From the NCBI RefSeq assembly GCF_005518135.1, contig NZ_SULI01000018.1, positions 1 through 64,000 on the forward strand: a stretch of 64,000 nt of DNA, given 5' to 3'. The notes under the pieces are model-generated. The model saw only the letters and a list, made by a program, of their open reading frames with translations, was not told the DNA's origin and did no database searches. Within the stretch, counting starts at the first letter, position 1, and each line of letters opens with the position of its first letter. Below are positions 11,345 through 30,881 of this stretch, in pieces. Source of the stretch: Shimia litoralis. GTDB taxonomy: Bacteria; Pseudomonadota; Alphaproteobacteria; Rhodobacterales; Rhodobacteraceae. Made by a program: the position numbers and the translations under genes.

Positions 11345-12841
11345 TTACTGCGGCGCCTGATAAATTGTGCACCCCAAAAAGCCGTGAACGTCGTCACAGT
11401 CGGGAGCCATCAACCGAGCATCGAGTCCTGCCGCCGATGCATTATGCGCCGCCAACAAAAATGACTCGAGAATACCATGCGCCTCTTGCTTGGCCGCACG
11501 TGCTCCAAAGACGGTATCCTCACGCGTGTTCAAAGCCGCCTGCCGGCTCCACAGGCTGCGCCTCGCATAGTCTAACGTTTTGGCAAATGCATCAGAATAC
11601 GCCAGAGCACGCGTCGCATCCTTTAGGAAAAACGCCCCATCAGAGAGCATATTTTCCTGATAATATGCCATCAACGCATCCGTCGATGCGATCAAGCCAG
11701 CACTGTGGATGGGCCTTTCTTGGCGTATGGCAATAAACGCACGCGCCAGATGAATATAATACTCCGCAGCCAATTGGTTGACGACATCGCCAGTTTCCAC
11801 AGCGGTATCGCGAAACGCGCCCAGCAGGCGCAGGCTTTTTTCCATATCCCCATCGACCACAGCCGACACCGCCTGCCGCAACATCATTTCGATTTGTTCG
11901 TCGTGATCGTCCGCCAATGGGATCGCGGCCTCAAGCGCTGCCGTTTCAATATCGCGCCGCCCGAGATTTGACGCGACGGACGCGAGTTCCGTCAAAATAT
12001 CAAATGACATTTCGGCAAACTCTGCCGAAAGAGGTTCAGGGCTATTCCAGTCAGGCGCGCCATGAAAATCCCAAGGTGACGTGGTCAGATACCCAAGTGC
12101 GCGCAAATACGCATTGGCGCTGTCGACGCCTCTGCCCAGCCCCGTCAAAGCACGCCCATTCAACAACTCAAGCTCGGCATTGAGACGGCGGACTTCACGA
12201 TCGTCCAACCCCATATCCAAGGGCAACACTGCGGTGCTGGTTAAGCTCAGTACCGACGCAAACTGGTTCTGTTGCAGGTGCGATGCGGCCCGTTCCAGAA
12301 CGTCGCGCGCAAGGTCTGTCGCGGCACTGTTGAACTTTGAGAGCGTCCCCTGCCCCCAATATGCAGCGTCCGCCTCATAGCTGTCGGCCATGGCATCATC
12401 AAATATGTTTCGCAGTTTTGGCGTGATCAAAACAGAAAGCTGATATGCCTCTTGCAGACGGCCCATATCCGCCAACGCATATGACAAAGACACCTGAAGG
12501 ATCGGGCGAAAATCATCCTGTGACGCGTCCCCTGCAATCAATGCCAACCCTTCTTCTGCGAGGATCAAAGCAAATCCGGGGTTCTTTTTGTAATTGCGCA
12601 CGACATCGGTCAACATCGCGTAAAAGATCGCAAAATCCGGTGTGATCGTGCCTGAGGCCCGCGCCGTCCGCAGAACATTTGTCAGATACAGGTAAGCGGC
12701 CTCGTCCCCCTGCCCCGTCGCAAGCACCTCTTCCAACCCGGCAACGACCGTGTCAAAATCATGTGTTTGTTGTGCGGGCACCGACGTGGCCAAGCAGAAA
12801 CTCAGGCACCCGGTGCACAGAATTTTTGCAAGTCCGCGCAT
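11345..12841 (-). CDS. Exported TPR-like helical protein, partner of the CHAT protease
   Basis: 498 residues from the ATG at 12841, which shares one base with the stop of the CHAT gene (TGATG). A signal peptide is clear: M-R-G-L-A-K-I-L, a hydrophobic core, then V-P-A-Q-Q. The rest is helical and alanine/leucine-rich with TPR-like pairs of helices, for example near S-Y-A-L-A-D-M-G-R-L-Q-E-A-Y. Two cysteines lie close to the C-terminus. No catalytic motif is visible. Proteins with CHAT domains normally carry TPR repeats on the same chain; here the repeat part seems to be a separate, co-translated polypeptide. It is the last gene of the minus-strand operon beta protein-caspase-CHAT-helical protein. 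The role as scaffold or sensor is inferred. Confidence 0.78.
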   Translation of the reverse strand: MRGLAKILCTGCLSFCLATSVPAQQTHDFDTVVAGLEEVLATGQGDEAAYLYLTNVLRTARASGTITPDFAIFYAMLTDVVRNYKKNPGFALILAEEGLALIAGDASQDDFRPILQVSLSYALADMGRLQEAYQLSVLITPKLRNIFDDAMADSYEADAAYWGQGTLSKFNSAATDLARDVLERAASHLQQNQFASVLSLTSTAVLPLDMGLDDREVRRLNAELELLNGRALTGLGRGVDSANAYLRALGYLTTSPWDFHGAPDWNSPEPLSAEFAEMSFDILTELASVASNLGRRDIETAALEAAIPLADDHDEQIEMMLRQAVSAVVDGDMEKSLRLLGAFRDTAVETGDVVNQLAAEYYIHLARAFIAIRQERPIHSAGLIASTDALMAYYQENMLSDGAFFLKDATRALAYSDAFAKTLDYARRSLWSRQAALNTREDTVFGARAAKQEAHGILESFLLAAHNASAAGLDARLMAPDCDDVHGFLGCTIYQAPQ

Positions 12842-14502
12842 CAATCCCCCCCATCACCGACAACGACAAACGGGGCCCACGCCGCCGGATGCGCCAAACT
12901 TGGATCCGACGTGTCATCCAGCATCAGCTGCATCGAATGCTGCAGTGCCTCTGCCTTGCGTCGGGGTGCACCACTGCCTGCATCTGCCAGATATCCAAAT
13001 GTCTGGGTCGTCAGCCGCGCGGCAGCATCGTCACGGACCGGCCAGTGAGACACCATAATGGCCCGCGCACCAGAAAACAAAAATGCCCGTGTCAGGCCCG
13101 ACAGGCCTTCGGCATCCGGTGTTCCGTCGCCCCCCGCGGTGTTGCAAGCCGACAGGACAATCCAATCTGCATCAATGGTCAGTTCTGCAATTTCTGACGC
13201 CTTCAGCAAACCATCATTCGCGGGTGTCGCAAGATCAGGCGGGGATAACACCAAGGCTGGCTCAGCAAGCCCCCTAAGCTCGCCAGACAGCAAACCGTGC
13301 GTTGCAAACGCAACCACTTTTGCCCTGACTGGCAAAGCTTGCCGCAGGGTGGCTTCGGAGGCTTGAGGTCCCAAGTAGATTTGGCTCGTCTCGGGTCCCA
13401 GAATTGCAGACAGCTCACGAATTTCACGACGCGTGTTCGGCAAAGGAGCCAAGGCGCGTATGCTTTCCAAGTCTGCAGTGCCAGCACGATACAAAGAACC
13501 GCTGGGCTGTGACATTTCTTGCCCCGAAAAGTCGGGATCACCAAACCCCAAAAAGGCATAATCTTCTTTAACTTTAGGCTCTGATCGTCGCTGAACAATC
13601 AATTGCAGGCTCTCGACCGACGGCAAGGTCGTCATGGCGTGCTTTTGAAACAGCCAGCTTGTACGTCGCAGCACTTCTGGGTCATCGTCTTCGCCCGTCA
13701 AAGGCCAGTCTGTGACCAGCAACGATAACGGCAACCCCGTCAAAGGCCCATCAACCACGGAGTAGAGATGTTTGACATCCTTGAGGGTCGGTTCAAGCGG
13801 ACGCAACAATTCGCCATACAATAACCCGGACCACACGCGATCGAACGCGGCCGTTTTGGGTTTTCCAAATTCATCATCCAGCCCAGCAGCGCCTCGCAAC
13901 AACGTGGCCTGCTGCAGCGACTGACGGATTTGCCCCACGCTATCTGCAAGCGTCACGCGCCCAAGCCCAACCCGATGCCACGCAATGCGGGTTGGCGTTA
14001 TCGCCCAGACAAAACTGTTTTGTTGTCCAGAAAAAACAAAGAGCATCCCCTCATCCGGCGCAAGCAGCGCCTGCACTTGGTCAAGCGACAAAGGGTGCGG
14101 ATTTGTGAGTCTGCTAAATTCGGGGAAATTCTGGTCCAGATTTGTGTCGAGATCACGTAACTCGGCATTCAGTCCTTCAAGATCGCCGGCCAGTCGCACT
14201 TTGGCATCTCGCGCTTCGCCCGTTTTGTCGGTGCCCGTCGACGCGAGCAAGGTTTCGGTTTTTGAGATTTGATCCACCAGTAACTGGCGCGCCTTGAGCA
14301 AGTCGGCAAGAGGTCCGTCACCTACGGCCCGACGTTGCTGTGTTTGACGCAGAGCGCTACCTGCAGAAGACAAAAACCCCCACTGCGCCGCTTGAAAAGC
14401 CTCGTCCATCAAGCTTGGCTGAACCGGAACCTGCGCGCGACCTGTTGTCATTGTCCCACACAACAAGACCATCACACCAAAGGTGAACCAAGCCCCGCGC
14501 AC
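12841..14502 (-). CDS. Exported CHAT-domain protease (caspase clan)
   Basis: 553 residues starting at a GTG four bases from the caspase stop codon. A hydrophobic N-terminus ending near G-R-A-Q indicates export. Residues about 65-125 are a charged coiled-coil-like segment, then F-P-E-F-S-R-L-T, then the CHAT domain (about 150-553). The catalytic dyad is visible as A-T-H-G with His402 and S-A-C-N-T-A-G-G with Cys453, followed by G-L-S-G-L-T-R-A-F and V-S-H-W-P-V. CHAT domains are caspase-fold cysteine proteases, known from separase-like and Craspase enzymes, usually cytosolic. Export is unusual. The C-terminus (A-W-A-P-F-V-V-V-G-D-G) closely resembles the giant TPR-CHAT protein at 26619-30881. 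Confidence 0.9.
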   Translation of the reverse strand: MRGAWFTFGVMVLLCGTMTTGRAQVPVQPSLMDEAFQAAQWGFLSSAGSALRQTQQRRAVGDGPLADLLKARQLLVDQISKTETLLASTGTDKTGEARDAKVRLAGDLEGLNAELRDLDTNLDQNFPEFSRLTNPHPLSLDQVQALLAPDEGMLFVFSGQQNSFVWAITPTRIAWHRVGLGRVTLADSVGQIRQSLQQATLLRGAAGLDDEFGKPKTAAFDRVWSGLLYGELLRPLEPTLKDVKHLYSVVDGPLTGLPLSLLVTDWPLTGEDDDPEVLRRTSWLFQKHAMTTLPSVESLQLIVQRRSEPKVKEDYAFLGFGDPDFSGQEMSQPSGSLYRAGTADLESIRALAPLPNTRREIRELSAILGPETSQIYLGPQASEATLRQALPVRAKVVAFATHGLLSGELRGLAEPALVLSPPDLATPANDGLLKASEIAELTIDADWIVLSACNTAGGDGTPDAEGLSGLTRAFLFSGARAIMVSHWPVRDDAAARLTTQTFGYLADAGSGAPRRKAEALQHSMQLMLDDTSDPSLAHPAAWAPFVVVGDGGD

Positions 14503-14505
14503 AGC

Positions 14506-16593: not shown

Positions 16594-16603
16594 CAGCCGC
16601 CTC

Positions 16604-17260
16604 CTAATTCGTAATCAAAGAATACGTGTTTCCTGCATCACCGGTGTTTTCTACCGTGATCGTAAATCCTGCGGTCTGCGCAGGGCGCCAACCGCAATAC
16701 GCGATGTCGCTGGCATCGGTATCAGAACACACAAGCCAATCCTGGTCATCGTGCACAAATAGATTCAAATCTGAACTCCCGGTGCCTTCGATGTATATTT
16801 CGGCATATTCGCCGCCTCTGAGCGCCAGAGATGCATATGAATCGGTGCCTCCAGCCGAAATTGATGTGATGCTGTATACGGGCCCACCTGCGACACCCTT
16901 GGACGTTTCTGCGCGCACATCTTCGATCAAGCCAAGCAATGCGGCATCCTCTCCAGCGGCATTTTCTGCAGCATCCAGCATAGATTGCCATGTGCGGAAC
17001 TGTGCTTGGGGCAACTGCAAAGACGCAGGGTATGGCGAGGTTGGCTCGCGATCAGAGTATTGGACCGCGATGGCTTTGCGCATTTTTGCAGCCACAAGCA
17101 TAAACAGCGGGTCCTGAGCTTGCACCCCCTGAGAATAGAGTTCAGCCGACAACCGCAAACGGTCCACGGGTGCGCTGTCTTGTGTTTGGCTTTGCGCCAT
17201 CGCCGGCACCGCCGCGGCGTTCAATACGAGCAAAAGAATAAATGCCGTCGAGGATTTCAT
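16604..17260 (-). CDS. Small secreted protein with C-terminal PPC-like beta domain (paralogue 1)
   Basis: 218 residues from an ATG with AGGAGG just upstream. The signal peptide ends after A-M-A (about residue 22). Residues 35-115 are helical (L-Y-S-Q-G-V-Q ... L-V-A-A-K-M). A junction S-K-G-V-A-G-G-P (Lys121) leads into a beta-rich C-terminal domain (about 128-218) like bacterial pre-peptidase C-terminal domains, with S-S-D-L-N-L-F-V and two cysteines (178, 189) likely to form a disulfide, ending N-T-Y-S-L-I-T-N. It is the first gene of the caspase-CHAT operon and is related over its whole length to the protein at 25739-26449. No catalytic residues were recognised; substrate, ligand or chaperone of the proteases are all possible. 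Confidence 0.8.
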   Translation of the reverse strand: MKSSTAFILLLVLNAAAVPAMAQSQTQDSAPVDRLRLSAELYSQGVQAQDPLFMLVAAKMRKAIAVQYSDREPTSPYPASLQLPQAQFRTWQSMLDAAENAAGEDAALLGLIEDVRAETSKGVAGGPVYSITSISAGGTDSYASLALRGGEYAEIYIEGTGSSDLNLFVHDDQDWLVCSDTDASDIAYCGWRPAQTAGFTITVENTGDAGNTYSLITN

Positions 17261-17422
17261 GAAAGCCTCCTGCTTTATAATATCCTCTATACTAGAAGCC
17301 AAAAATTCCTTCGGGCAACGTTTTTCAGCCACCTAACAGTATTATAACGGCATTTGTCATGTGCGTCTGCGCAGGGTGGCCATTAGGTTGGGTTCGAACT
17401 TAAGAATTCAAGGAAGCCCGAC

Positions 17423-18745
17423 TTGCGACAGATTTTCAATATCCTCAAACTCTCGTGCCTTCTGATGGTTTTCGCATTTTCTGCAGCGGCCCATCCGCCT
17501 TTGGACAAACCTACCAGTCTCAAACAAGCGATTGCGGCAACGTTTCTGGTGCAAACGAATGATCTTGAACAACGTTTGCTTGGGTCTGGATTTCTATTTG
17601 GCGCCACCCGCATTGTGATGACCAACGACCATGTCGTGGGTGCGGAAAGGACCGTGCGGCTGGTCGCGAGCGATGGCCGCACCGCAATTGCCAAGGTCAT
17701 TTCACGCGACAGGCTACGCGACATCGCAATACTGCAAGTCATGTCGGACACGTTCGACACTGTGCGCCCTATTCAAGTCGCAAAAACCGCGCCTGAACTC
17801 GGGCAGGTGATATTTGCCATCGGCGCGCCATACGGCGCAGACTTCAGCCTTTCGCGGGGCATTGTCTCTGCACTCGGACGCCAAATCGAAGCAAATGTTC
17901 CCGTTCGGATGATACAACATGATGCCGCCGTAAATCCCGGAAGCTCGGGTGGGCCACTGGTGGACGCCAAAGGACAATTGATCGGCATGAATAGCCAAAT
18001 CGCCGATGGTTTCAGAAGCTTTATTGGCATCGCGTATGCCATCCCAGCAGGTAACCTTGTCCGGGTGCGTGACGCCATGCATACCACAACACAACCGCCT
18101 ATGCAGACTCTGGGTTTGCGTGTGCGCCCCGTGTCGCCACGGATTGGTGCAGCCCTTGAAATGGGCCCAGCGTCCGGCATTCTCGTAGATCACGTCATGG
18201 CTGGCGGTATCGCCGAGGCCGCTGGCGTGCAGGCCGGAGATATCATGGTCTCGCTGGGGAATCAGCCGCTTACTGTGCCCGGTGATCTGGCGTTTGCCCT
18301 TGAACACGTCGCCATACAGGACGTTGTAGATCTCAAGGTGCTGCGCGGAAAACGCATCAAGACGCTGTCCGTTCAGGTATCGCAAAAACCCGACCTCAAG
18401 GCAGCCCCCGAAGCGAGGCTTCCATTGGAAACACTTGACTATTCCATGTCAGACATCGGGCTACAGCTAAGTTCTGACGGCCGTATTCTGAGTGTAACAC
18501 AAAACAGCCTTGCCCATTTCGAGGGCCTCTCGGCAGGAGATCAAATCATTGCGATCAACAGCCAGGACCTTGCGAAAAATGGCGCGCTTCTCGCAGATTT
18601 TCGCATCCAACAGCCCGCGCTTGTCCTTGTGGCCCTTTCGGATGGCTCGACACGTCATTTTGTTCTGGACCCATGGCGCAAGCCCGGACGTCTTCGTCCA
18701 GTCAGCGGCGCGAATGTTCTTGACGAAGAGATCGTGATCTTTTGA
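17423..18745 (+). CDS. HtrA/DegP-like periplasmic serine protease with two PDZ-like domains
   Basis: 440 residues from a TTG with AGGAAG seven bases upstream. The signal peptide ends near S-A-A-A-H. The S1C triad is visible: His70 in T-N-D-H-V-V-G, Asp100 in L-R-D-I-A-I-L, Ser175 in N-P-G-S-S-G-G-P-L (Ser in place of the usual Asn before the nucleophile). A first PDZ domain (about 235-320) has G-I-L-V-D-H-V and A-A-G-V-Q-A-G-D-I; a second, more degenerate one (about 345-415) has G-L-S-A-G-D-Q-I-I-A-I-N. HtrA enzymes degrade or signal misfolded envelope proteins. It leads a run of plus-strand genes in the accessory block, directly before a two-component system. Confidence 0.9.
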   Translation: MRQIFNILKLSCLLMVFAFSAAAHPPLDKPTSLKQAIAATFLVQTNDLEQRLLGSGFLFGATRIVMTNDHVVGAERTVRLVASDGRTAIAKVISRDRLRDIAILQVMSDTFDTVRPIQVAKTAPELGQVIFAIGAPYGADFSLSRGIVSALGRQIEANVPVRMIQHDAAVNPGSSGGPLVDAKGQLIGMNSQIADGFRSFIGIAYAIPAGNLVRVRDAMHTTTQPPMQTLGLRVRPVSPRIGAALEMGPASGILVDHVMAGGIAEAAGVQAGDIMVSLGNQPLTVPGDLAFALEHVAIQDVVDLKVLRGKRIKTLSVQVSQKPDLKAAPEARLPLETLDYSMSDIGLQLSSDGRILSVTQNSLAHFEGLSAGDQIIAINSQDLAKNGALLADFRIQQPALVLVALSDGSTRHFVLDPWRKPGRLRPVSGANVLDEEIVIF

Positions 18746-18773
18746 TATTTAACAAAGCGGAAAGGTTATCATC

Positions 18774-19469
18774 ATGACACAAGTTTTGATTGTCGAAGAC
18801 GACCCAGTGAGCAGCCGCGTGTTTGAACGCACAGCCCGCGATCTTGGCGGCGAGCCGACCACAGCAGCGACATATGACCGTGGGCTTGAATTGGCCACGA
18901 CCGGAAGCTTTGACTTGATCGTGATTGATCGCATGCTGCCCGGCGGTGATGGCGTTGACGCAATCGCAAAGCTGCGCTTAGCCGGATCAAACGCGTTGAT
19001 TTTGGTGGTCAGCGCACTTGGGCGATCCGCGAACAAAATCGAAGGCTTGGAAAAGGGGGCTGATGATTATTTGGCCAAACCCTTTGACCCAGAAGAGTTG
19101 CGAGCACGCATGCAGTCATTGATGCGACGCGTGACAATTCAAACAAGCGACAACGATTTGATCGCATTTGGCGATTTGGAAATTCGCCGCAAGGCAAGAA
19201 CAGTGCATTTCGGGATCGACCATGTTCCTGTCACGCCAAAAGAATTCGATTTGCTTTGCTTTTTTGCCATCAATGCAGATGCCACCGTGACCCGCATGCA
19301 GCTCTTGGAAAATGTTTGGAATTTGCATTTTGATCCGCAAACCAACGTGGTTGATGTGCATGTCGGGCGTTTGCGCCGCAAACTCGAAGAAGCCTCGGGA
19401 CGTAGCTATATCCAGACCTCCCGTGGCGCCGGATACATGTTTCTGCCGCAAATCGCGGTCTCGGCATGA
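18774..19469 (+). CDS. OmpR-family response regulator
   Basis: 231 residues. The receiver domain has the acidic pair E-D-D at 8-10, the phospho-acceptor Asp52 in V-I-D-R-M-L-P and Lys102 in A-K-P-F. The C-terminal winged-helix DNA-binding domain shows T-P-K-E-F-D-L-L and V-D-V-H-V-G-R-L-R-R-K. A GAAAGG site precedes the ATG. The 3' end overlaps the kinase gene by four bases, so the two form a dedicated pair. Targets may include the surrounding protease genes, but no shared binding site was identified. Confidence 0.95.
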   Translation: MTQVLIVEDDPVSSRVFERTARDLGGEPTTAATYDRGLELATTGSFDLIVIDRMLPGGDGVDAIAKLRLAGSNALILVVSALGRSANKIEGLEKGADDYLAKPFDPEELRARMQSLMRRVTIQTSDNDLIAFGDLEIRRKARTVHFGIDHVPVTPKEFDLLCFFAINADATVTRMQLLENVWNLHFDPQTNVVDVHVGRLRRKLEEASGRSYIQTSRGAGYMFLPQIAVSA

Positions 19470-20842
19470 TAGAAATGAAAGGGTTACGCACCTCAGCAAG
19501 TCTGCGCGTAACCGTTTTGGTGGCATTGCTGATATCGGGTTTCTCGGTCATCAGCCTCTCAGTCCAGTACCTGCAGGTGCGTTCCGAGCTGGCGAGAAGT
19601 CAAATCAACGACCTGCAAGCCGATCTAGATGCCTATAGTGCACTCTATGACCAACGGCGAATTCCGGCATTGCGGCAAGCCATGGAGTTTCGTGCAACGG
19701 CACGCCCTACGTACGACTATGTCTATTTGTTGCTAGACAAGAAAGGGCAGGTCCTTGCGGGAAATATCCCCGAGTGGCCAGCAGGCCTTGCCCCCATCGG
19801 AAACGGGTTTCAAACCGACCCCATCGCAGAATTCGAGATGACGACGCCCGACAACCATACGGATGCGTATATCGGTGTGGCGCGCGATTTACCCGGCGGG
19901 TTTCCACTCTTGGTCGCCCACTCGCTAAGTCGACAAACGCAGCTCTTAACGGATCTGCGAAGGCGGATTTTTTATGTCGCTTTGGGGATGAGCGCACTCA
20001 GCATCTTAGGTGGCTGGATGGTCAGCCGCCTTGTCTTGGGGCGGATCAACAGGATCAACCGATTGGCGGACAAGGTCGCACAGGGGGATTTGGATGCACG
20101 CATCCCTGGCCCACAAACACCCGACGAGTTCGGCGCGCTCGAAAATCACTTGCACTATATGCTGGACCGTATTGGCGCATTGCAAAAATCCACATCTGAC
20201 TTGAGCGATGCAATTGCCCACGAGTTGCGCACCCCCTTAAATCGGATACGACAACGGCTGGACGAGCTGGACGCGGATGATGAAACGGTCATCGCGCTTG
20301 AGGCCGAGTTGCAATCCACAGTCGCGATATTTGACGCGCTTCTGGACATTACTGCGGCCGAGGCCGCAACCGGAAGTCAGCCCGGACTCAAGCCCGTCTG
20401 CCTGTCGGATATCTGCCAAAACGTGTTTGATCTGTACGAGCCATTGGCCGAGGATAGACATCTGGAGATGACCTGCGCGCTGCCACCGGACTTGTGGGTG
20501 TTAGGAGATACAAACCTGATTGCCCGTTTGCTCGCGAACGTCTTGGACAATGCCCTCAAATTCACCAGTTCTGGGGATACCGTCCACCTAAGCTTGGTGC
20601 CCAGCGGGATGTATTACAACCTCACGCTTTCCGACTCCGGCCCGGGGCTCCCTAAGGGCCTGCAAGACCGCGCCTTTGAAAGATTCACACGGGGCGATCA
20701 GGTCGACACAGTTCCCGGACATGGATTAGGGCTCGCGCTTGTAAAGGCCATTGCGCTGCGGCATGGCGCAAAACTTAGGATTGTCCCAGATAAAAAAGGG
20801 TTTGCCGTTGAAACCCGATGGCCTAAGCTTGAACAATTGTAA
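19466..20842 (+). CDS. Membrane sensor histidine kinase (EnvZ/PhoQ type)
   Basis: 458 residues. Two transmembrane helices (about 12-34 and 168-190) flank a periplasmic sensor region of some 130 residues; a HAMP linker follows, with R-I-N-R-I-N-R-L-A-D-K-V-A. The dimerisation/phosphorylation motif is A-H-E-L-R-T-P-L with His252, and the ATP domain has N-V-L-D-N-A-L-K, D-S-G-P-G-L and G-H-G-L-G-L-A-L. The periplasmic domain could read an envelope signal such as protease activity or unfolded protein. Overlap with the response regulator gene is ATGA. Confidence 0.95.
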   Translation: MIEMKGLRTSASLRVTVLVALLISGFSVISLSVQYLQVRSELARSQINDLQADLDAYSALYDQRRIPALRQAMEFRATARPTYDYVYLLLDKKGQVLAGNIPEWPAGLAPIGNGFQTDPIAEFEMTTPDNHTDAYIGVARDLPGGFPLLVAHSLSRQTQLLTDLRRRIFYVALGMSALSILGGWMVSRLVLGRINRINRLADKVAQGDLDARIPGPQTPDEFGALENHLHYMLDRIGALQKSTSDLSDAIAHELRTPLNRIRQRLDELDADDETVIALEAELQSTVAIFDALLDITAAEAATGSQPGLKPVCLSDICQNVFDLYEPLAEDRHLEMTCALPPDLWVLGDTNLIARLLANVLDNALKFTSSGDTVHLSLVPSGMYYNLTLSDSGPGLPKGLQDRAFERFTRGDQVDTVPGHGLGLALVKAIALRHGAKLRIVPDKKGFAVETRWPKLEQL

Positions 20843-20864
20843 CAGGCTGGCCCATTTTTTACTG

Positions 20865-22325
20865 ATGATTAAGTCGCTTTCTCCGATGTCTCGCAACGCC
20901 ATGGGTGCCCTTGCCCTCACGATTGCCGGATGCGCCGCCATCAACCAGCCAATCAACAAACCCATCTCTGCTGGGCAATCCTCATCATCCGCCGACACCT
21001 CGTTTATCCCTGAAAATTTGGACGATAGTGTTTATATCGGCTTGGCGTTTTCAGGCGGCGGCACGCGCGCCTCGGCGTTTGCCCACGGCATGTTGACCGA
21101 ATTGCAAGCCACCAGCCGATCCAAGTCCAACCCTGACGGGCTGTTAAAACACGTCCGTCTGGTCACTGGCGTCTCTGGTGGGTCGGTCACTGCGGCCTAT
21201 TATGGCCTGCGTGGGCCAAAGGGGCTAAGCACCTATCGCGACGGCTATCTTGTCAAAGATGGCGAAAAATACATGTCTACATCGGCCTTCAACCCCATCA
21301 CCCTTTCCAAGGGCATATCGGGCGGGGTGAACAGCCGTGACACCTTTGCGCGATTTATGGACGAAACGATTTTCCATGGGGCAACTTACAAAGAACTGTT
21401 GAAAAACAGGGATATCCAAACGTGGATAAATGCCAGCGATATCGCCAACAACGCACCATTCCTGTTCACACCAGAGACATTTGACGCACTGTGTAGTGAT
21501 CTGTCTCAGCTGCCCATTTCAGAGGCCGTAGCAGCATCCGCTGCGGTGCCTCTTGTCTTTAGCCCGATCGTGCTCAAGTCACATCAAGGCTGTAAATATA
21601 CCGAACCTGATTGGCTGGTTGCAGCACGCCACAACCCCGAGTCGACCTCGGCAATGCGGGCCTATGCGCAAGCCCTTGAAAGTTATCGAGATCCCGCAAA
21701 AGTCCGGTATGTGAAACTGTTGGACGGGGCTGTGACGGATAACTTTGGGACCACAGGTCTTTCCGTAGCACGCGCCAAGGCCAAAAACTCGTATGGGCCC
21801 TTAACCGAGCGCCAAGCCGTACAAATCAAGCGCATGCTGTTTCTGGTTGCGGATGCGGGCACACAAAAAGATTACCGCTGGACCCAGAATATCAAAGGCC
21901 CCGGCGGGCTTCAGTTGGCACAGTCGATCGCCAGCAGTGCAACGGGGGCCGCAACACGTGTCGGGTACGACGTGATGCGTCTAACACTGCGCAATTGGCA
22001 CGCCGATCTTATCGATTTCCGATGTGGTCTTTCGCCTGACGATGTGGTGCGGCTGCGTGGGCATTCCGAAAACTGGGACTGTGCGGACGTAAAACTGTTT
22101 GTCGGGGACATTTCCTTTGCAGACTTAGATGCGGATATGCGCCGTCAGCTCAACGAAATTCCAACGCGTTTGACGTTGCCCGCACCGCAAGTGGACCTTG
22201 CCATTCTTGCAGGACGCGAAAGCACTCGCCGCAGTTCGGAGTTCAACGGATTTCTGAAAAGCCTGAAACAGTCTGCGTCAACCGTGTCACCAAATGCACG
22301 GCGCATCACCCCGATCAAGAATTAA
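20865..22325 (+). CDS. Patatin-like phospholipase lipoprotein
   Basis: 486 residues. The N-terminus is a lipoprotein signal with lipobox T-I-A-G-C (Cys23 from this ATG; a second ATG seven codons later is also possible). The patatin core has the oxyanion loop F-S-G-G-G-T-R (62-68), the nucleophile motif G-V-S-G-G (Ser104) and the D-G-A motif (Asp287), i.e. the full Ser-Asp dyad. Such enzymes hydrolyse acyl chains from phospholipids. A lipidated patatin would act at a membrane surface, probably in the outer membrane. It sits between the sensor kinase and the second caspase on the same strand, implying joint regulation. Confidence 0.88.
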   Translation: MIKSLSPMSRNAMGALALTIAGCAAINQPINKPISAGQSSSSADTSFIPENLDDSVYIGLAFSGGGTRASAFAHGMLTELQATSRSKSNPDGLLKHVRLVTGVSGGSVTAAYYGLRGPKGLSTYRDGYLVKDGEKYMSTSAFNPITLSKGISGGVNSRDTFARFMDETIFHGATYKELLKNRDIQTWINASDIANNAPFLFTPETFDALCSDLSQLPISEAVAASAAVPLVFSPIVLKSHQGCKYTEPDWLVAARHNPESTSAMRAYAQALESYRDPAKVRYVKLLDGAVTDNFGTTGLSVARAKAKNSYGPLTERQAVQIKRMLFLVADAGTQKDYRWTQNIKGPGGLQLAQSIASSATGAATRVGYDVMRLTLRNWHADLIDFRCGLSPDDVVRLRGHSENWDCADVKLFVGDISFADLDADMRRQLNEIPTRLTLPAPQVDLAILAGRESTRRSSEFNGFLKSLKQSASTVSPNARRITPIKN

Positions 22326-22414
22326 CGAACATTATGACGGGGCCTGGATGACAAATTCCTTTAACATTCGGCACAGGCTTGCATCATCCCTGTTGCGCAT
22401 TATCCTTCCTGACC

Positions 22415-24472: not shown

Positions 24473-24514
24473 AGCGCGCACCCTCTACGCCGCTCATTTG
24501 CAGGAGAAGTATCA

Positions 24515-25576
24515 ATGAAAAAAAAGAGTCTTATCGTAAGTAGCGTCGTACTGTCATTTGTATTGGCGGCAGGCAGTCAAGCGCAGGAATTCAACCCACC
24601 GTCGCCGGATGCAACATTGGCGTCCCCTTTTGCATATGCGGAAAGCCAGAAGAAGGCCGAGCACGCCAAAGAGGTCGCAGCAAGCGACAGCGGGTCAAAG
24701 GTTATTGGCGGTGAGGTCTCGCGCGAGGGCGCGTGGCCTTGGCAAGTTGCCCTTGTTATTGGTGGGCAAAATCCATCTCCTGACTCACAGTTCTGTGGCG
24801 GGTCAATGATTTTGGATAACTGGGTTCTGACCGCGGCCCACTGCATCCACATGGCCGACGACCAAGGCGTGTATCGCGATATCCACCCAAGTCGCTTTGC
24901 GGTGGTCGCCGGGACAAATAAACTGGACGGTGGATCAGGTGATATGATCCCGGTCGAGGCTGTCTTCCGGCACCCGTCCTATGATGGCAATGAATTTGAT
25001 CACGATGTTGCCCTGATCAAGCTCCAGCGTGCGCCACGTGTCCGCTATGAAACCATCAAGGTTCCAGATGCCGAGTTTGGCGATATTCTAGAGCGGCCCG
25101 GTGTCACCACGATTGTGACGGGTTGGGGACTGACCGAAGGCGGCAACCACCCTGATCGCCTTCATGAAACGCAGATCCAGATGCTCGATCGTGACATGTG
25201 CAACTCTATGTTGCTGGAAGCGCGCGCGACCGAAGCCGTCAAGGGATTTGGTTTCGCGGCACAGGTCTTGGGCATGAACACGGCGACGGCCCAAAGTGCA
25301 TGGGAAGAATTCATCCGCCACGTTCGTGACCCCCTCACCGCCAACATGATCTGTTCAGGATCGCTGGCGGGTGGCAAGACATCTTGCCAAGGAGACAGCG
25401 GCGGCCCATTGGTTGTTCCGCTCAATGACGGGTCTTATATTCAGGCCGGTATCGTGAGCTGGGGATTGTCCAGCGGTAACGGCAAAACATGTGCCGAAGA
25501 CGCGATCTTTTCTGCATATACGCGCACCGCGAACTATGTGGATTGGCTAAATCAAACGATCCAATCCAACGACTAA
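24515..25576 (+). CDS. Secreted chymotrypsin-fold (S1A) serine protease with zymogen-type junction
   Basis: 353 residues. The signal peptide ends near S-Q-A-Q (24). A propeptide of about 38 residues ends at S-K-V-I-G-G, where Lys62-Val63 matches the classical activation cleavage site. The triad is His109 (T-A-A-H-C), Asp164 (D-H-D-V-A-L-I) and Ser295 (G-D-S-G-G-P-L). The residue six before the nucleophile, Asp189 in trypsin, is Thr289, and the position equal to 226 looks like Ser, so trypsin-like Arg/Lys specificity is unlikely. An insertion of about 35 residues precedes the last cysteine-bridged strand. GGAG precedes the ATG. It is the last gene of the plus-strand run and is followed by a terminator. 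Confidence 0.92.
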   Translation: MKKKSLIVSSVVLSFVLAAGSQAQEFNPPSPDATLASPFAYAESQKKAEHAKEVAASDSGSKVIGGEVSREGAWPWQVALVIGGQNPSPDSQFCGGSMILDNWVLTAAHCIHMADDQGVYRDIHPSRFAVVAGTNKLDGGSGDMIPVEAVFRHPSYDGNEFDHDVALIKLQRAPRVRYETIKVPDAEFGDILERPGVTTIVTGWGLTEGGNHPDRLHETQIQMLDRDMCNSMLLEARATEAVKGFGFAAQVLGMNTATAQSAWEEFIRHVRDPLTANMICSGSLAGGKTSCQGDSGGPLVVPLNDGSYIQAGIVSWGLSSGNGKTCAEDAIFSAYTRTANYVDWLNQTIQSND

Positions 25577-25598: not shown

Positions 25599-25627
25599 AG
25601 CCCGCCCAATGCTTGGGTGGGCTTTTT
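25599..25627 (+). terminator. Rho-independent terminator after the S1 protease gene
   Basis: AGCCCGCCC (25599-25607) pairs with GGGTGGGCT (25615-25623) with one wobble, loop of seven bases, followed by a T-run. Confidence 0.85.
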
Positions 25628-25676
25628 CATGGCTGTGTACCAACACCAATGTGAACGGACAGAGCTAGTTGGCCAA

Positions 25677-25707
25677 CACAAAAAGGGTGCCCGCTTTCAC
25701 GGGCACC
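25677..25707 (-). terminator. Rho-independent terminator after the second small beta protein
   Basis: A perfect stem GGTGCCCG/CGGGCACC (25686-25693 with 25700-25707), six-base loop. On the minus strand it is followed by CTTTTTG. It faces the plus-strand terminator. Confidence 0.85.
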
Positions 25708-25738
25708 ATCCAGTCTTGGGGAGAGAGGTCGTCTGGGA

Positions 25739-26449
25739 TTAATTGGTCAGCAAATAATAGCTGTTGCGCACGCGGCCCTGGTTCACGACACCGACAAGGA
25801 AATACCCATCCCAACGCGGTGTGAACGAGCAATACAGCTGGTCGGAATAGCTCACGTCTTTGCAGATCACATTGCCATTTTCATCAGTTACCAACAGATC
25901 AAGATCCGCATCGCCGTCGCCGACAATCGCGAGTTCAGCAAGTGACCCGCCATAGAACGGAACCGAGAACACGTCGGTGCGTCCGGCCCGCAGCCGGCTT
26001 AGGGTCCGTGAAGGCCCGCCAATACGACCGCGTGCGCCTTCGGCTTCGGCGTCTTCAATCAAGCCCATCACCGTGGGATCACCCGCAGCAAGTTCCTTGG
26101 CAGAGGCCAACATCATCTCGGCGGTCACAGGAGAATCCACGCCATCGCCGCCATCTGCAACTTCGCCGGCACCTTCAGTTGGCTTGTTCTCAACGTCTCT
26201 TTCTACATCTTCTACTTCGATCGACATTGTAATCTGTGCTGCAGCCAAAACGGCCAATGCGTTGCCGCTTTCCATACCATAAGAATACAGGTTCTGAGCC
26301 ATCGCCAATTGCGCGACGGGGCCTTGGGCACCCTGCGCCCCTTGGGTGTGGTTGCTGCCACTTTTATCTTCGGCGAACGCCGCTGGTGCGGCAGCCACAA
26401 ACAGGGCAGCAGCACATGTCAGCGCCATATTTTTCAATTGGAAGTTCAT
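25739..26449 (-). CDS. Small secreted protein with C-terminal PPC-like beta domain (paralogue 2)
   Basis: 236 residues from the ATG at 26449 (AAAGG upstream; a GTG five codons earlier is less likely). The signal peptide ends at A-A-F-A (26). A helical part follows (L-Y-S-Y-G-M-E ... L-A-A-A-Q-I), then an acidic Gly-rich stretch (about 78-106), then A-R-G-R-I-G-G-P (Arg142-Ile143), then a beta domain with A-D-L-D-L-L-V, two cysteines and the ending N-S-Y-Y-L-L-T-N. It matches the protein at 16604-17260 in order of parts and in both ends. The R-I-G-G string resembles a protease activation site. It has its own promoter region and terminator, so it can be made in amounts different from the proteases. 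Confidence 0.8.
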   Translation of the reverse strand: MNFQLKNMALTCAAALFVAAAPAAFAEDKSGSNHTQGAQGAQGPVAQLAMAQNLYSYGMESGNALAVLAAAQITMSIEVEDVERDVENKPTEGAGEVADGGDGVDSPVTAEMMLASAKELAAGDPTVMGLIEDAEAEGARGRIGGPSRTLSRLRAGRTDVFSVPFYGGSLAELAIVGDGDADLDLLVTDENGNVICKDVSYSDQLYCSFTPRWDGYFLVGVVNQGRVRNSYYLLTN

Positions 26450-26618
26450 TTCAGAGCCTTTCACTTTTCAAACGCGTTGCACCAAATTTTCGAGGCGCAC
26501 AAAACTATAACAAAAGCCTGTCACCTCTCGCGGAAAAAATGAACCCCCTTTTTGGTGACAAAGACCGTTAGTATCCGCTCTTTTTTGGCCACTTCAGGCA
26601 TTTTACCCTGCCGCAAGG

Positions 26619-29600
26619 TCAATCGATCGCGCCTTCACCGACCAAGACAAACGGGGCCCAAAAACGCGGATGGCTGTGTCTGTTGTCATCAGAATTGTCC
26701 AACAATTCCAGAATTGAAGCCTGTAACGCCTTAGACCGCCCAACTGGCGTTTCGGCCTGTAGATGAGACAACATACCCGTCGTCAAAGCGGAGGTCGCAT
26801 AGTCATCAACTGGCCAATGTGACACCAATATCGACCGAGCCCCCGCGAAAATAAACGACCGTGCCAAACCGGACAGACCCTCTGCACCCGGTGTGCCATC
26901 CCCCGCAGCAGTATTGCAGGCAGACAGTATAATGAGATCAGCAGAGAGCTTGAGTTGCGCAGCTTCGGAAGCAGTCAACAAGGCATCATCAGTTGAGGTC
27001 GGCGACATCGGTGGCGTGAAGACCAACGCAGGTTCTTCCAAACCAACGAGCCCCCCCGATACAAGGCCGTGCGTGGCAAACGCCAACACCTGTGTATTGG
27101 AAAGATCGCTTTGTTTCACACGTGCCTCGGTCGCATTTGACGCCAAAAAAATGGACTCGGATCCGACCCCCATCACATCGGCTTGGGCGCGCAGCTCGGT
27201 CTCTGTAAAAGGAAGAGGCGCCAAATTTGCAACGCGCGACACCTGTTCGTAGACACCTCGGGTCACAACGCCCTCTCCTAATGTCACGCCCTGCCCGTCT
27301 AAGTCATCTTGGTATCCTAACACGGGATTCCCAAAGCCGGTGAACGGGTGTTTTTCCGTGGACGGTGACGCCTCGGGGCGTGCGCGCCGCAAGCTTCGTA
27401 AACTCGACACGTTGGGCAGCGTGCTCATCGCGTATTTTCGGATCAACCAATCACTTTGGCGCAGATCATCCGCAGATGTGTCCGCCCCTTGTGGGGGCGA
27501 CGTCAGGAGCACCGCCAACGGCAAGCTGTTCAAGGGCGCGTCCACGACGCTGATCAAATGGTCAATGTCTTCGAGAACATGGGCCACCGGCGCCAAGATA
27601 TCGAGATACAGTTCATACGCCATAGCACGATCAAACGGCGCCACCGAGGCTACAAACCCTGCATCAAGGGACTCGGCCGAACGGTTGTCAGATGTCACAT
27701 CAAGCATCGCCCGCAGCGTCCGTACCCGGCTGTCCAGGTCTGCACGGGGAAGGTCCGCACGATGCCAAGCAGAGTGGCGTTTGCCAATAGCCCAAACATA
27801 AAGGTAGCTCTCGGTTGACAAGGTCAGCACCATGGCCTCGCGATCCCCCAAAATACTCTGCACGTCGTGTCGCGACATAGGCAATGGATCGGTGAGTTCC
27901 TGAAACGCAGGAAACTCATCCAGCAACTTTTGATCTATCTCCGAAATCTGTTTGCGGATCGCGTCAATCTTAGACTGCGTTTCCGCCACCTTTGCCTCTG
28001 AAGCTGCCCCATCTTGCAACACAAATTTTGAAAAAGCGCCCTGCAATTGCGCCAAGACATCCGCCAATTCCTGACGCGTCCGCAGCATTCCAGACAGGGC
28101 GACATCATTTGCCGCCACGCGTGCGGCAGCCTGTTCCATCGCTTTGCCAGCTGCTGTGGTCGACAGATTCTGGGTTGCCAGAAACGAGTTGTCTCGAATT
28201 TCGGCAACCACTGCGGCGTCGGCCTTAAGCGTAGCCCCATATTCCCACCCAATATACGCCTCGTCAGCCACCCTGAGACGGTCGAACTCGGCGTTTGATG
28301 CGACCTTGACGCCCGAGCTTTTGGCCAGCCCACGGAGCCGCCCAAAATAGAGTTCGTTAGAACGGCGCACATTTTGGTATGCATCCCCCAACAGGCCCAA
28401 AGCAAATTCTGCGCCAACCCGTTCATATAGCAGGCCGGACAGGAGCAAACCCGACTGATACTCAGGAGACGGAATTGCGCGCTCGGCTTGCTCATACAGT
28501 AAGAGCGCCTTTTGAGGCTGATCCGCAAAGTTCAACGCATGCCCCAAGGTTTGCATCAGCAACACTTGGTCTTCCGGCGCAAGACTTGCTACGAAATCGT
28601 GATCCTGAACATATGGCGCGGCAACGTCGATGGCCTGTTGGTATTCTCCCACTCGGAACAGCGCATAGCAATAATTTGCAAGCACAGCTGCAACGTATTT
28701 TGACGAAGCTTCCCCTGTCGAAATCTCTTCAAAGGACTGGCGAAACAATACCATCGCAAGGCGACTATCGCCCATCATTTCCAACATATTCGCCTGACGG
28801 ACAGTCAGTACAGCAAGCACATCGTTGCGGTAATATTTGCCATTGCGATACATCGCGATCGCCCGGTCAATCGTCTTGAGCGCGTCATCGCTTTGGCCTG
28901 TCTCGAATAGAGAATCCGCATAGTTCACCATACCCACAACCTGCCAGATGTGGCCTTCGGGCAACATGGTGGTAAGCTGCTTGATAACACCCGCCAAGAC
29001 GGATTGGGTGTTCTCCGCGCTCAAAAGCCCCGCAGCCGAGTTCAGTCGAAACATCGTGGCAAGAGTGACCGCCAGATGGGGGGCTTCGTGTGCTTGTATC
29101 ACCCTCAATGTGCGTTCCAAATGCGCCTCGGCCTCAAGATACGCTCCATGGCGATAGTACGGATCCACCAAACTTAGCATAATCCAAATTCGCCACATGC
29201 CCTGTCCCCAACTTTCCGGGGGCATCTCTTTCAAGGTCCGAAACGCCGCAAACTTCACATGTGGCTGATCCGCCAAATCCGCCCACGACATCTGAAGAAC
29301 CAAACCGATCGCACGGTGCTGGGGCGTGATATCCTCTCGTTGCAAGAAACGGTCCAGTGTGGGCCCAACTGCGTTCCACTGCCACTCGACGCCCCAAACA
29401 TGCGACATGACATCAATAATATCAAAAATTGGATCGGTTGGCCGAAGCTCGGACTGTTCGGGAACACTTAACTGTCGTGCACGCTTTAGATGCGCTTGCG
29501 CTTGTTCTACTTCCCCGATCAGCGCGAAGTATAAAGCCAGATTTATCTCCAGGAGTGACTCGCTCTGGCCTTGAGACTGCAGAGACAACAGGCGGTTTTC

Positions 29601-30881
29601 CAGATCAACATACTTGCCACGGAAAAAGCCTTCGAGAATAGTTTCGCCATTCGACGACAATCCAAGAGGTTTGGCTGTTTCAACGCCTATTTCTTTCGCG
29701 AATTCAAAGGCTTCCGGATCTATTAAGGCAACATCTAAATAGCTACGAATGTTCAAAACCGTTGGATGGGTCGCCGCACGCACTTCTCGCATGGCAGCAT
29801 AAGCCGCCCGATAGTTTTTCTGCGCAAGCTCAGGATTATCTTGCCGCCGGTATGCATGCCCCATGCCCCGCAAAAAAGTCGCCTTTTGCACGGGCCTTCC
29901 GCCACCATTCAACTCGATATCGGCAAGAGCTTGCGAGGCCAATGAAATCGAAGCGTCGTATCGTTTTGTCGACGAATACAGCTCGGCTAGGTTCTGAACA
30001 GCCCAGAAATACCCCCTACTGTTCGGGGATACATCTTGTAGGTATGCAATGCGACGTTCGAGTATTTTCTCTGCGTCCTCAAACTGATTGGCTTCAAAAT
30101 ACAGAATGGCGATAAGGCCCAGAAACTTGTCCATTTCCTGATCTGAGACACCATTTGCGGATGTTAAGAACACCTGAAATTCACGCGCTTTTTTCACCAG
30201 CTGTATGCGGTCTGCCTTTTGCGTCCGCTCATATTGCAACCCTGCATTCACCAACCTCGCCCGATACAAATCTGACTTTAGGTTCGCAGCGTCAAACAGC
30301 GCGACAGTTCGATCAAGCACCTCAAGCGTATCTTTGGCTTTGTTTTGGATCGCGACAAAACTGAGATGATATAGCGCGTTTCGATGATGCAGGGCCACAT
30401 CTGTGCGCCCTTCAGAGATATCCACGGCACTTCGCAGGACGACCTCTGCTTGACGGTGATCGTTCTGCATGCGCAGGACAAGCCCCAAGATTGCCAGCGC
30501 TTCGATACGTGCCGGATCAGTTGTCCAACCGTCGTCTGCCATACCTGCAATAACAGCGGCGGCAAAACGCTCAGATTCGGCATAATCTTTTTTGTGACGG
30601 TAATACCGCGCCATCGCCAGATTTGGTAAATAGAGCTCTCTGGTTCCCTGTATCAGGCTTTCATTGTTATAGCTTTTCCAAGAAATTGCTTCGAGAACCT
30701 CATAGCTCTCATCCCGCTTGCCTTGCGAAATTAGGGCATCGACCTTGGCAAGCTCGGTCCATATTTCTTGCAGTAAAGCGGCGCGCGTAAGTTCTTGTGC
30801 AGACACGGGCGGGCTTGCCAGACTCGCACAAGTGAGGCCTAGCCAAAGCAAAGCTGTCCTAAAAATCCAGAATACGTCCAT
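26619..30881 (-). CDS. Giant exported TPR-CHAT protease
   Basis: 1420 residues from the ATG at 30881 (GTG and TTG codons lie just upstream). The signal peptide ends near V-S-A-Q-E. Residues about 30-900 are tandem TPR-like helical repeats (for example L-A-M-A-R-Y-Y-R-H-K-K-D-Y-A-E). A coiled-coil-like segment (about 930-1000) ends in F-P-A-F-Q-E-L-T, also present in the shorter CHAT protein. The CHAT domain follows, with the dyad in A-T-H-G (His near 1271) and S-A-C-N-T-A-A-G-D (Cys near 1322). This is the usual TPR-CHAT architecture, but exported. It equals a fusion of what the 11345-14502 pair holds on two chains. The gap to the next small gene (26450-26618) has no gene. Confidence 0.9.
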   Translation of the reverse strand: MDVFWIFRTALLWLGLTCASLASPPVSAQELTRAALLQEIWTELAKVDALISQGKRDESYEVLEAISWKSYNNESLIQGTRELYLPNLAMARYYRHKKDYAESERFAAAVIAGMADDGWTTDPARIEALAILGLVLRMQNDHRQAEVVLRSAVDISEGRTDVALHHRNALYHLSFVAIQNKAKDTLEVLDRTVALFDAANLKSDLYRARLVNAGLQYERTQKADRIQLVKKAREFQVFLTSANGVSDQEMDKFLGLIAILYFEANQFEDAEKILERRIAYLQDVSPNSRGYFWAVQNLAELYSSTKRYDASISLASQALADIELNGGGRPVQKATFLRGMGHAYRRQDNPELAQKNYRAAYAAMREVRAATHPTVLNIRSYLDVALIDPEAFEFAKEIGVETAKPLGLSSNGETILEGFFRGKYVDLENRLLSLQSQGQSESLLEINLALYFALIGEVEQAQAHLKRARQLSVPEQSELRPTDPIFDIIDVMSHVWGVEWQWNAVGPTLDRFLQREDITPQHRAIGLVLQMSWADLADQPHVKFAAFRTLKEMPPESWGQGMWRIWIMLSLVDPYYRHGAYLEAEAHLERTLRVIQAHEAPHLAVTLATMFRLNSAAGLLSAENTQSVLAGVIKQLTTMLPEGHIWQVVGMVNYADSLFETGQSDDALKTIDRAIAMYRNGKYYRNDVLAVLTVRQANMLEMMGDSRLAMVLFRQSFEEISTGEASSKYVAAVLANYCYALFRVGEYQQAIDVAAPYVQDHDFVASLAPEDQVLLMQTLGHALNFADQPQKALLLYEQAERAIPSPEYQSGLLLSGLLYERVGAEFALGLLGDAYQNVRRSNELYFGRLRGLAKSSGVKVASNAEFDRLRVADEAYIGWEYGATLKADAAVVAEIRDNSFLATQNLSTTAAGKAMEQAAARVAANDVALSGMLRTRQELADVLAQLQGAFSKFVLQDGAASEAKVAETQSKIDAIRKQISEIDQKLLDEFPAFQELTDPLPMSRHDVQSILGDREAMVLTLSTESYLYVWAIGKRHSAWHRADLPRADLDSRVRTLRAMLDVTSDNRSAESLDAGFVASVAPFDRAMAYELYLDILAPVAHVLEDIDHLISVVDAPLNSLPLAVLLTSPPQGADTSADDLRQSDWLIRKYAMSTLPNVSSLRSLRRARPEASPSTEKHPFTGFGNPVLGYQDDLDGQGVTLGEGVVTRGVYEQVSRVANLAPLPFTETELRAQADVMGVGSESIFLASNATEARVKQSDLSNTQVLAFATHGLVSGGLVGLEEPALVFTPPMSPTSTDDALLTASEAAQLKLSADLIILSACNTAAGDGTPGAEGLSGLARSFIFAGARSILVSHWPVDDYATSALTTGMLSHLQAETPVGRSKALQASILELLDNSDDNRHSHPRFWAPFVLVGEGAID

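Follow-up and report, generated by a model that had tools for sequence, protein, structure and literature searches.

A gene cluster of Shimia litoralis with two exported caspases, a trypsin-fold proenzyme, and a two-component pair points to an undescribed cell-envelope protease system

Introduction

CpxRA is an envelope stress response of Escherichia coli, in which the CpxR box has the form GTAAA-N5-GTAAA. To our knowledge, bacterial caspases have been considered chiefly as enzymes of conflict or cell death, and few of their natural substrates are known. Here, we describe a dozen neighboring genes of Shimia litoralis, within a stretch of 64,000 nucleotides (contig NZ_SULI01000018.1, positions 1 to 64,000; hereafter the window), where genes for exported caspases stand beside those for a trypsin-fold proenzyme and a two-component pair, and which point to an undescribed cell-envelope protease system.

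As far as the available portions of the relevant papers go, Alphaproteobacteria have multi-metacaspase operons, and four Rhizobium strains a protease/inhibitor operon (PMC3501461), the QC pseudo-orthocaspases of Alphaproteobacteria carry a fused trypsin-like domain, which is a related pairing within one protein (PMC6426788), and a cascade has been proposed for the System 3 trypsin-NucA conflict systems (PMC7159879). The operon section of PMC3501461, taken apart from its supplementary operon table, contains no cluster such as the one described here, and nothing similar is found in the accessible portions of PMC8195603 and PMC4933709; the second of these speculates on extracellular protein degradation by bacterial metacaspases. 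Literature searches, which apart from the papers cited here covered listings, gave no recognized description of this system, in agreement with a preliminary description made from the sequence alone, which knew of no system with this make-up.

Results

Organization and Predicted Export of the Cluster

From gene orientation and spacing, we read the 12 genes as three blocks, with domains called from Pfam. Block 1 runs on the minus strand from ~17260, with gaps of at most 10 bases or a 4-base overlap. It opens with b1 (16604..17260 with an ATG start at 17260, a GTG start at 17332 being possible), which encodes a small exported core protein made of helices and a PPC-like jelly roll, followed by C1 (14506..16593), a core exported metacaspase-type caspase with a long C-terminal beta-rich part (Peptidase_C14, 3.9e-15), CHAT1 (12841..14502), an exported clan CD protein with intact His and Cys (CHAT, 6.8e-53), and A (11345..12844), which overlaps CHAT1 by 4 bases, ends the run, and encodes an exported, accessory, helical or TPR-like protein with no Pfam match. 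Block 2, on the plus strand (17423-25576), comprises S1C (17423..18745), a core DegP/HtrA-like exported protease with PDZ domains; RR (18774..19469), a core OmpR-family response regulator; HK (19466..20842), a core membrane histidine kinase with a HAMP domain; a patatin-like lipoprotein, predicted to be a phospholipase (20865..22325; Patatin, 4.7e-16); C2 (22379..24472 from a TTG start, or from an ATG at 22409), a second core exported metacaspase-type caspase (Peptidase_C14, 5.1e-25); and S1A (24515..25576), a core exported trypsin-fold proenzyme with the activation site SGSK↓VIGG and Thr at position 189 (Trypsin, 6.1e-48). Block 3, on the minus strand (30887-25739), consists of L (26619..30887), an accessory exported protein that combines TPR repeats with a second CHAT domain whose His and Cys are visible in the sequence, and then, after a 154-base gap, b2 (25739..26464), a paralogue of b1 with an RGRIGG linker. 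The cluster ends at 30887 with the TTG start of L, or at 30881 with its ATG start. Genes, strands, and domains are as first given in the preliminary description.

That description also held ten proteins to be exported. An in-house signal-sequence heuristic, used in place of SignalP, flags signal peptide- or lipobox-like N-termini in these ten of the 12 cluster proteins, the patatin as a lipoprotein; it likewise flags HK, which we interpret as a membrane segment, and does not flag RR or the products of the flanking genes etfA, etfB, and DUF6473. Homologues are flagged in 73/76 cases for C1, 73/74 for b1, 44/48 for C2, 46/49 for S1A, and 60/64 for S1C, against 1/66 for RR as a control. The patatin homologues are flagged in 41 of 46 cases (39 as lipoproteins and 2 as SPI, the rest being 4 "TM?" and 1 none). 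About 7 of 11 CHAT homologues have N-termini that look signal-like by eye, the heuristic's 0/10 being an artefact of its start-codon limit. These counts support the prediction that export is conserved among homologues.

Conservation and Co-occurrence

When a seven-row C1 alignment was scanned against a named genome collection, 108 relatives were found, and the best 80 were kept; by title, these are mostly Rhodobacteraceae (for example, Shimia, Tabrizicola, Pseudorhodobacter, Thalassovita, Oceaniglobus, and Sulfitobacter), many of them metagenome-assembled genomes (MAGs). Gene-order and RR/box counts use 67 of the 80 loci, the 13 with less than 9 kb upstream of C1 having been dropped, as were open reading frames under stated lengths; one locus, L074, in which an N gives an X, was left out of the set A4. 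Such counts, by which the significance of gene content was judged, are inflated by the relatedness of the loci. The core order, b1-C1 divergent from S1C-RR-HK-patatin-C2-S1A, recurs in Rhodobacteraceae. Counted anywhere in the 67 loci, b1 is present in 62, RR and HK in 60 each, S1C in 58, S1A in 50, C2 in 49, and the patatin in 47; b2 (20), CHAT (8), and A (2, both Shimia) are less common. The commonest upstream order, S1A-C2-patatin-HK-RR-S1C / b1-C1, is found in 17 loci and, with b2 added, in 11 more, while none of the families lies upstream of C1 in 5/67.

We also searched 149 same-family genomes (G numbers), each labeled as a different genus, counting C1 as present at ≥400 bits, C2 at ≥250, b at ≥100, CHAT at ≥380, and S1A at E ≤1e-20. 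Several assemblies are shared by the two sets (L066 is G026, L067 is G005, L104 is G022, L105 is G020, L117 is G040, and L132 is G120), which are thus not independent. C1 is present in ten genomes, G073 (247 bits) being counted as lacking it. C2 matched 18 genomes at 1e-5, of which nine, this genome included, exceed 250 bits, and all nine have C1. The same holds for all eight genomes with S1A (six at ≥400 bits, with divergent copies of <180 bits in G028 and G005) and all seven with CHAT, lower-scoring CHAT matches also occurring in the C1-lacking G078, G121, G004, G098, and G100. The patatin is present in eight genomes, seven with C1 (the exception being G085), and b in ten, nine with C1 (the exception being G110); weak b matches in G117, G064, and G021 (<35 bits) were not fetched. 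Hypergeometric p values for co-occurrence range from 1e-8 to 1e-13, and that for the eight S1A genomes is 9e-12, kinship being ignored and cut-offs having been chosen after the scores were seen.

In the fetched neighborhoods, order is mostly the same, with protein identities of ~36-66%. The cluster is in two pieces in G120 and G034, where the C2-S1A pair lies ~230 kb and 1.65 Mb, respectively, from the C1 locus; in G026 and G034, CHAT lies megabases from that locus or on a different contig, and G028 is too fragmented to place it. The G020 stretch contains only CHAT, patatin, b1, and C1, and in G022 both C1 and C2 are split. Across the class, 3 of 385 genomes match C1 at 1e-40, this genome being one. 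The preliminary description had proposed conserved co-occurrence as the check on a system, and this stood up: core order is kept in most loci, and scattered parts co-occur and share an operator. Its inclusion of the CHAT proteins in the set did not, since on these counts the CHAT, TPR, and A genes are accessory and lineage-specific. CHAT as a core family was rejected on its 8/67 loci, despite strong CHAT matches always lying in genomes with C1 (7/7), and a constant pairing of b2 with CHAT was rejected likewise, fetched orphan b loci showing no CHAT match.

Among the loci, the one from Ahrensia sp. R2A130 (L133) is a compact variant, with C1, TPR-CHAT, S1A, b2, and S1C on one strand, HK and RR on the other, and an operator box upstream of C1. 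In G099 (contig C3, ~169.8-177.5 kb; L038/L039), three consecutive TPR-like proteins of 865-895 residues, resembling the TPR half of L, lie next to a distinct CHAT gene; L resembles a fusion of units that elsewhere are encoded separately. Another two proteins, of ~900 residues and with C-terminal ends similar by eye, adjoin C1 or CHAT (L061:3539-6244, which has no Pfam match, and L105:4417-7137), and a small membrane-like protein precedes each of them. L074 (CP059262.1) is a Rhodobacteraceae-type locus under an Exiguobacterium profundum MAG title and is probably mistitled.

A Shared Operator

The system genes are accompanied by a conserved operator, RTGACAAANNCNGTYA, first described here. In the divergent b1/S1C region it takes the form CACATGACAAAnnCnGTCAT, with a core, ATGAC-N6-GTCAT, that is an inverted repeat. 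In the 58 regions where both b1 and S1C starts could be placed, the best match covers 12-18 of 18 positions and reaches at least 15 in 52, against ≤14 in 290 shuffles, and the most frequent dyad is found in 34 of 49 non-redundant regions, compared with ≤4 in shuffles. A matrix built from 48 distinct sites found 1 site scoring ≥9 in 431 kb of shuffled loci. With this matrix, a box of ≥12 lies within 1.5 kb upstream of C1 in all 60 loci that have RR and in none of the 7 that lack it. Two-fold cross-validation gave 59/60 (the miss being L057, at 7.5) and 0/7, and RR-containing loci never used for the matrix have the box in 8 of 8 cases.

In the window, the b1/S1C box is ATGACAAATGCCGTTA (17345..17360, minus strand; score 33.0), b2 has its own exact match in the 154-base gap, GTGACAAAGACCGTTA (26555..26570, plus strand; 4.5), and a degenerate box with one mismatch, ATGACAAATTCCTTTA (22348..22363, plus strand; 3.1), lies directly before C2. 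This genome has 5 exact matches, against 0 for the control, of which three are at b1/S1C, at b2, and at a third b gene, b3, on contig C34 (box 27.6). The exact matches on contigs C14 and C16 lack an evident partner, as do most of the matches with one mismatch, and they may be chance.

The box also precedes genes outside the b1/S1C region. Sites of ≥12 in the 80 loci lie by C2 in 21 cases, by b2 in 11, and at no system gene in 12. Outside the training regions, the relocated C2-S1A pairs keep it (22.7 in G034 and 13.3 in G120), as do C2 and b2 of G026 (25.8 and 26.4) and the orphan b2 genes of G120, G034, G040, and G022 (20.5-23.0). Orphan b genes have a box in 5/5 cases in genomes with C1, versus 0/3 in genomes without it (G110, G103, and G077); a 13.7 site in G110 is read as coding sequence of the neighboring gene because two similar sites are found next to b2 in G120 and G034. 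The exact pattern occurs 38 times in ten genomes with C1, versus 7 times in twenty without, a reversed-pattern control giving 1 and 5. Three degP orthologues have a box (15.6 in G028, 16.1 in G022, and 12.3 in G120).

Since the box also precedes members that have moved elsewhere (C2-S1A, b2, the third b gene, and sometimes degP), the prediction that the system genes form one regulon is well supported. Because the box tracks the presence of RR and lies in the region of its own operon, RR very probably controls all these system genes, its own operon included. The sensor kinase had been called dedicated, and the two-component pair does look so, with operator presence tracking the RR gene.

The third b gene (G000 contig C34, ~86332-87118; L134 8330-9010, box at 9104) lies ~94 bp downstream of the exact box, far from the cluster and close to a radical SAM protein gene. 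In G120, a small exported-looking protein with no Pfam match (L042:10116-10670) has a 20.9 box just upstream, ~2.4 kb from the relocated C2-S1A pair, and is a possible further regulon member. This genome also encodes a third caspase-domain protein with a stronger Pfam score (G000:C36:4840-5523; L144), without a box of ≥9 on its 8-kb contig.

Catalytic and Pocket Residues of the Caspases

The catalytic residues, described as visibly intact in the window proteins, proved conserved among homologues as well. His and Cys are present in 77/77 C1, 49/49 C2, and 11/11 CHAT sequences, the patatin has its Ser/Asp dyad and lipobox Cys in 47/47 each (window proteins included throughout), and the phospho-acceptor His of HK is present in 63/63. 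The six proteases stand as counted, yet they have two folds rather than the three proposed, because caspases and CHAT proteins have a common fold (clan CD), as do S1A and S1C (clan PA); the patatin belongs to a lipase family.

Both C1 and C2 belong to Peptidase C14, with Pfam scores over the cut-off and a p20 with His and Cys. The C1 profile matched metacaspases in the PDB (best E 5.3e-19), and a C1 model (pLDDT 72.9) placed metacaspases and GSU0716 at the top of a fold search. The caspase C-terminal parts have no credible Pfam coverage even at E 10; DUF4384, considered as a candidate for them, was not supported by any search. Two Asp residues of the S1 pocket are conserved, in 76/77 (one gap) and 77/77 C1 sequences and in 49/49 for each position in C2. 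They were aligned with TbMCA2 Asp95 and Asp211 on the basis of motif and spacing, the spacing being set by what we take to be the catalytic numbering of TbMCA2. According to the available portions of two papers, these TbMCA2 residues accommodate basic residues (PMC6426788 and PMC4357240). Both caspases are thus predicted to cut after Arg or Lys. In the C1 model, pLDDT is low at 182-185, 187-197, and 219-229 of the loop that follows the catalytic Cys. In or beside this loop R198 is invariant and R196 and R220 are conserved at ≥90%, which makes it a candidate self-processing site.

The S1A Proenzyme, S1C, and the Histidine Kinase

By PDB alignments, S1A is a trypsin-fold proenzyme, with a complete triad and an activation site before I16-V17-G-G. 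Over 50 rows, His and Asp are present in all and Ser in 49, the remaining row being a gap. The activation residue, K62 in the window protein, is basic in 50/50 (K in 31 and R in 19) and is followed by V in 48/50, then by I, V, or L in 50/50, G in 48/50, and G in 50/50. Position 189 is Thr in 45 rows, Gly in 3, Leu in 1, and a gap in 1; with no Asp189 in the 49 non-gap rows, S1A is not a true trypsin. Because Thr occupies this position, self-cleavage at K/R↓VIGG, and hence self-activation, is predicted to be unlikely.

S1C matches Trypsin_2 and PDZ in Pfam and TIGR02037 (the Do family) at 243 bits against a cut-off of 416; among its homologues, the triad His is present in 59/65, Asp in 60/65, and Ser in 61/65. 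The best NCBIfam match of HK is a heavy-metal sensor family, below cut-off, and the NCBIfam scan did not identify HK as a CpxA orthologue (67.6 bits against 486).

The b Proteins

What had been described as small beta proteins do have a beta domain, and their full make-up adds a helical one. The model of b1 (217 residues; pLDDT 83.6) has four helices and then eight strands, with K120-G121 between the modeled domains at a pLDDT dip to ~79. The K/R-G linker and a Cys pair are each conserved in 75/75 b1 sequences, and features common to b1, b2, and b3 are the Cys pair, the motif AEx[SA][KR]G, and a C-terminus of LTN or ITN type. In a fold search, the strand domain matched Tk-SP subtilisin, GOLD domains, and the PPC and collagen-binding domains of collagenases. 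At the sequence level, Pfam gives b1 and b2 no named domain and, at E 10, nothing beyond sub-threshold, chance-like matches, with no PPC (PF04151) match up to that E value. The modeled C-terminal domain of b1 appears to have the same jelly-roll fold as the PPC/jelly-roll domains of secreted proteases (PDB 3afg and 5sv5); in contrast to these, b1 stands alone with its own helical domain, beside a protease and not fused to it.

Genomic Surroundings

On one side the cluster borders etfBA (9530-11262), and on the other a gene for a DUF6473 protein (30979-31815). An etfA match was found in 33 relatives; in 13 of the 29 whose etfA loci were fetched, DUF6473 sits within 1.5 kb of etfA, and the whole 19.5-kb block therefore looks inserted between the two. 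Further along the window, a sensor kinase with a Sensor_TM1 domain (35019-36737), which we take to be ChvG, lies beside phosphoenolpyruvate carboxykinase (37697-39406) in what is presumably an ordinary alphaproteobacterial neighborhood.

Discussion

We read the cluster as a co-inherited, co-regulated two-component envelope proteolysis regulon with a caspase-to-S1A cascade, a reading for and against which our own judgment is evenly balanced. We infer the cascade because the S1A precursor needs a cut after Lys or Arg that S1A itself probably cannot make and both caspases probably can. In its fuller form, as an extracytoplasmic caspase-to-trypsin zymogen cascade under two-component control with b proteins cut at K/R-G as substrates or brakes, the proposal is tentative; such a cascade could be likened to coagulation or apoptosis, but located in the envelope. 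HK would sense envelope stress and raise expression via RR, and C1 and C2 would mature and then cut S1A at K/R↓VIGG, and possibly the b proteins at the K/R-G linker, which would separate their helical and jelly-roll domains. Envelope proteins and phospholipids would then be removed or remodeled by active S1A together with the DegP-like S1C and the patatin lipoprotein. As roles for the b proteins, those of substrates, adaptors, or CpxP-like feedback partners seem to fit best, and the CHAT/TPR proteins would supply extra clan CD activity in some lineages. For the proteolytic cascade suggested in the preliminary description, support is indirect and comes from the S1A activation site, its position 189, and the caspase S1-pocket residues; of the functions offered there, a response to envelope damage seems to fit best, given degP boxes in 3/10 genomes and an rpoH box in one.

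Several observations weigh against this proposal. A basic activation residue is general to S1A zymogens whatever the activator, so the site does not single out caspases, and CHAT proteases or an outside enzyme could activate S1A; the caspase specificity itself rests on Asp residues matched by motif and spacing. Binding of RR to the box is deduced from association, and 17 of the 38 exact matches lie at system genes, over a background of ~0.35 per genome; G020 and G099 have three matches each, all of them away from system genes. In the matrix, the window's C2 and b2 boxes score weakly. Of seven CHAT loci, only L150 has a strong box, which is shared with b2, while L146 (9.4) and L148 (11.7) have weaker ones near the start, and L147, L149, L151, and L152 have none of ≥9. 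A degP box is absent in 7/10 genomes, and the rpoH box, 140 bp upstream, was seen in a single genome, G005. Finally, G020 has C1 at a locus without RR, HK, and box, and C2 of G120 contains an in-frame TGA.

A possible though doubtful alternative is an envelope quality-control regulon like CpxRA whose proteases work in parallel, every one on its own substrates, with no activation chain. The opening of the RR-HK operon with S1C would suit such a regulon, as would the degP and rpoH boxes and the small protein whose gene diverges from the RR-HK operon across the operator, which is the arrangement of cpxP and cpxRA. What speaks for a chain instead is that S1A is a classical proenzyme, with position 189 arguing against self-activation, and that its retained neighbors include two proteases whose pocket is predicted to take Arg/Lys.

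We think it unlikely that the cluster serves defense or altruistic lysis, with the kinase sensing damage by phage or competitors and the caspases, S1A, and phospholipase breaking the envelope. The patchy distribution (10/149 genera), the apparent insertion between etfA and DUF6473, and PADLOC matches to caspase and phospholipase models are all compatible with it, and multi-peptidase operons are a feature of conflict systems described in the accessible part of PMC7159879. Yet the effectors are predicted to be exported and not cytosolic, transcriptional auto-control by a two-component pair would be slow for abortive infection, and no EAD, STAND, NTPase, or nuclease domain of such systems was matched in the cluster (no EAD, STAND, or NTPase match in Pfam at E 0.05 for 12/12 proteins). 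Nor did PADLOC name a defense system, giving for ten proteins (all except L and RR) nothing beyond generic models (caspase, RT-protease, PDC, and phospholipase effector).

Exoenzymes secreted for nutrition or matrix processing, a set of proteases and a lipase for digestion, would account for the many hydrolases with signal peptides and for PPC-like domains, which are known from secreted proteases. We consider this distinctly improbable, as Pfam matched no secretion-machinery domain in the cluster, the patatin is a predicted lipoprotein, the operator is common to degP in some genomes, and metacaspase-type enzymes are narrow processing proteases. Mere synteny by vertical descent is very improbable: nearly all matches are indeed, by title, from related loci of Rhodobacteraceae or other Alphaproteobacteria, but the genes are absent from most genera, far-moved pieces still co-occur and keep the operator, and the RR/box association opposes it likewise. 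A link to gene transfer agents was dropped, since those are widespread in the order and this set is patchy.

If the proposed cascade holds, bacterial caspases would initiate zymogen cascades outside the cytoplasm, wired to an envelope stress response. The cluster would then provide exported caspases as a defined set, along with a substrate that is likely to be natural (the trypsin-fold proenzyme encoded in the same operon, whose basic activation site is conserved), candidate second substrates in the b proteins, a regulator, and an operator. The locus is present in cultured species such as Shimia aestuarii and Fuscovulum blasticum (L055 and L096), which makes these steps testable.

Compared with described systems, C1 and C2 are like prokaryotic metacaspases and orthocaspases in their p20 His-Cys dyad and two S1-pocket Asp residues, as far as the available portions of PMC3501461 and PMC6426788 describe these, and unlike them in that both are predicted to be exported, have a long C-terminal part, and lie with S1A and S1C in a cluster that RR very probably controls. 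System 3, in the accessible part of PMC7159879, also has several peptidases per operon and a proposed cascade; the present cluster differs in that no NucA, EAD, or STAND parts were matched, in its predicted extracytoplasmic location, and in its probable two-component control. L resembles TPR-CHAT proteases such as Csx29 of Craspase in combining TPR repeats with a CHAT domain, but it has a predicted signal peptide, it is accessory, and no CRISPR effector domain was matched in the cluster. Because of the divergent b1 and operator before the RR-HK operon and the presence of degP in some regulons, Cpx appears to be the nearest functional comparison, though the cluster is not a Cpx member. Both would pair an OmpR-family regulator with a membrane histidine kinase, set a divergent small periplasmic protein across the operator, and control a DegP-type protease. 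They part in their effectors, which here are caspases, an S1A proenzyme, a patatin, and b proteins with a PPC-like jelly roll; in a sensor kinase that was not identified as a CpxA orthologue; and in the operator, which is ATGAC-N6-GTCAT and not GTAAA-N5-GTAAA.

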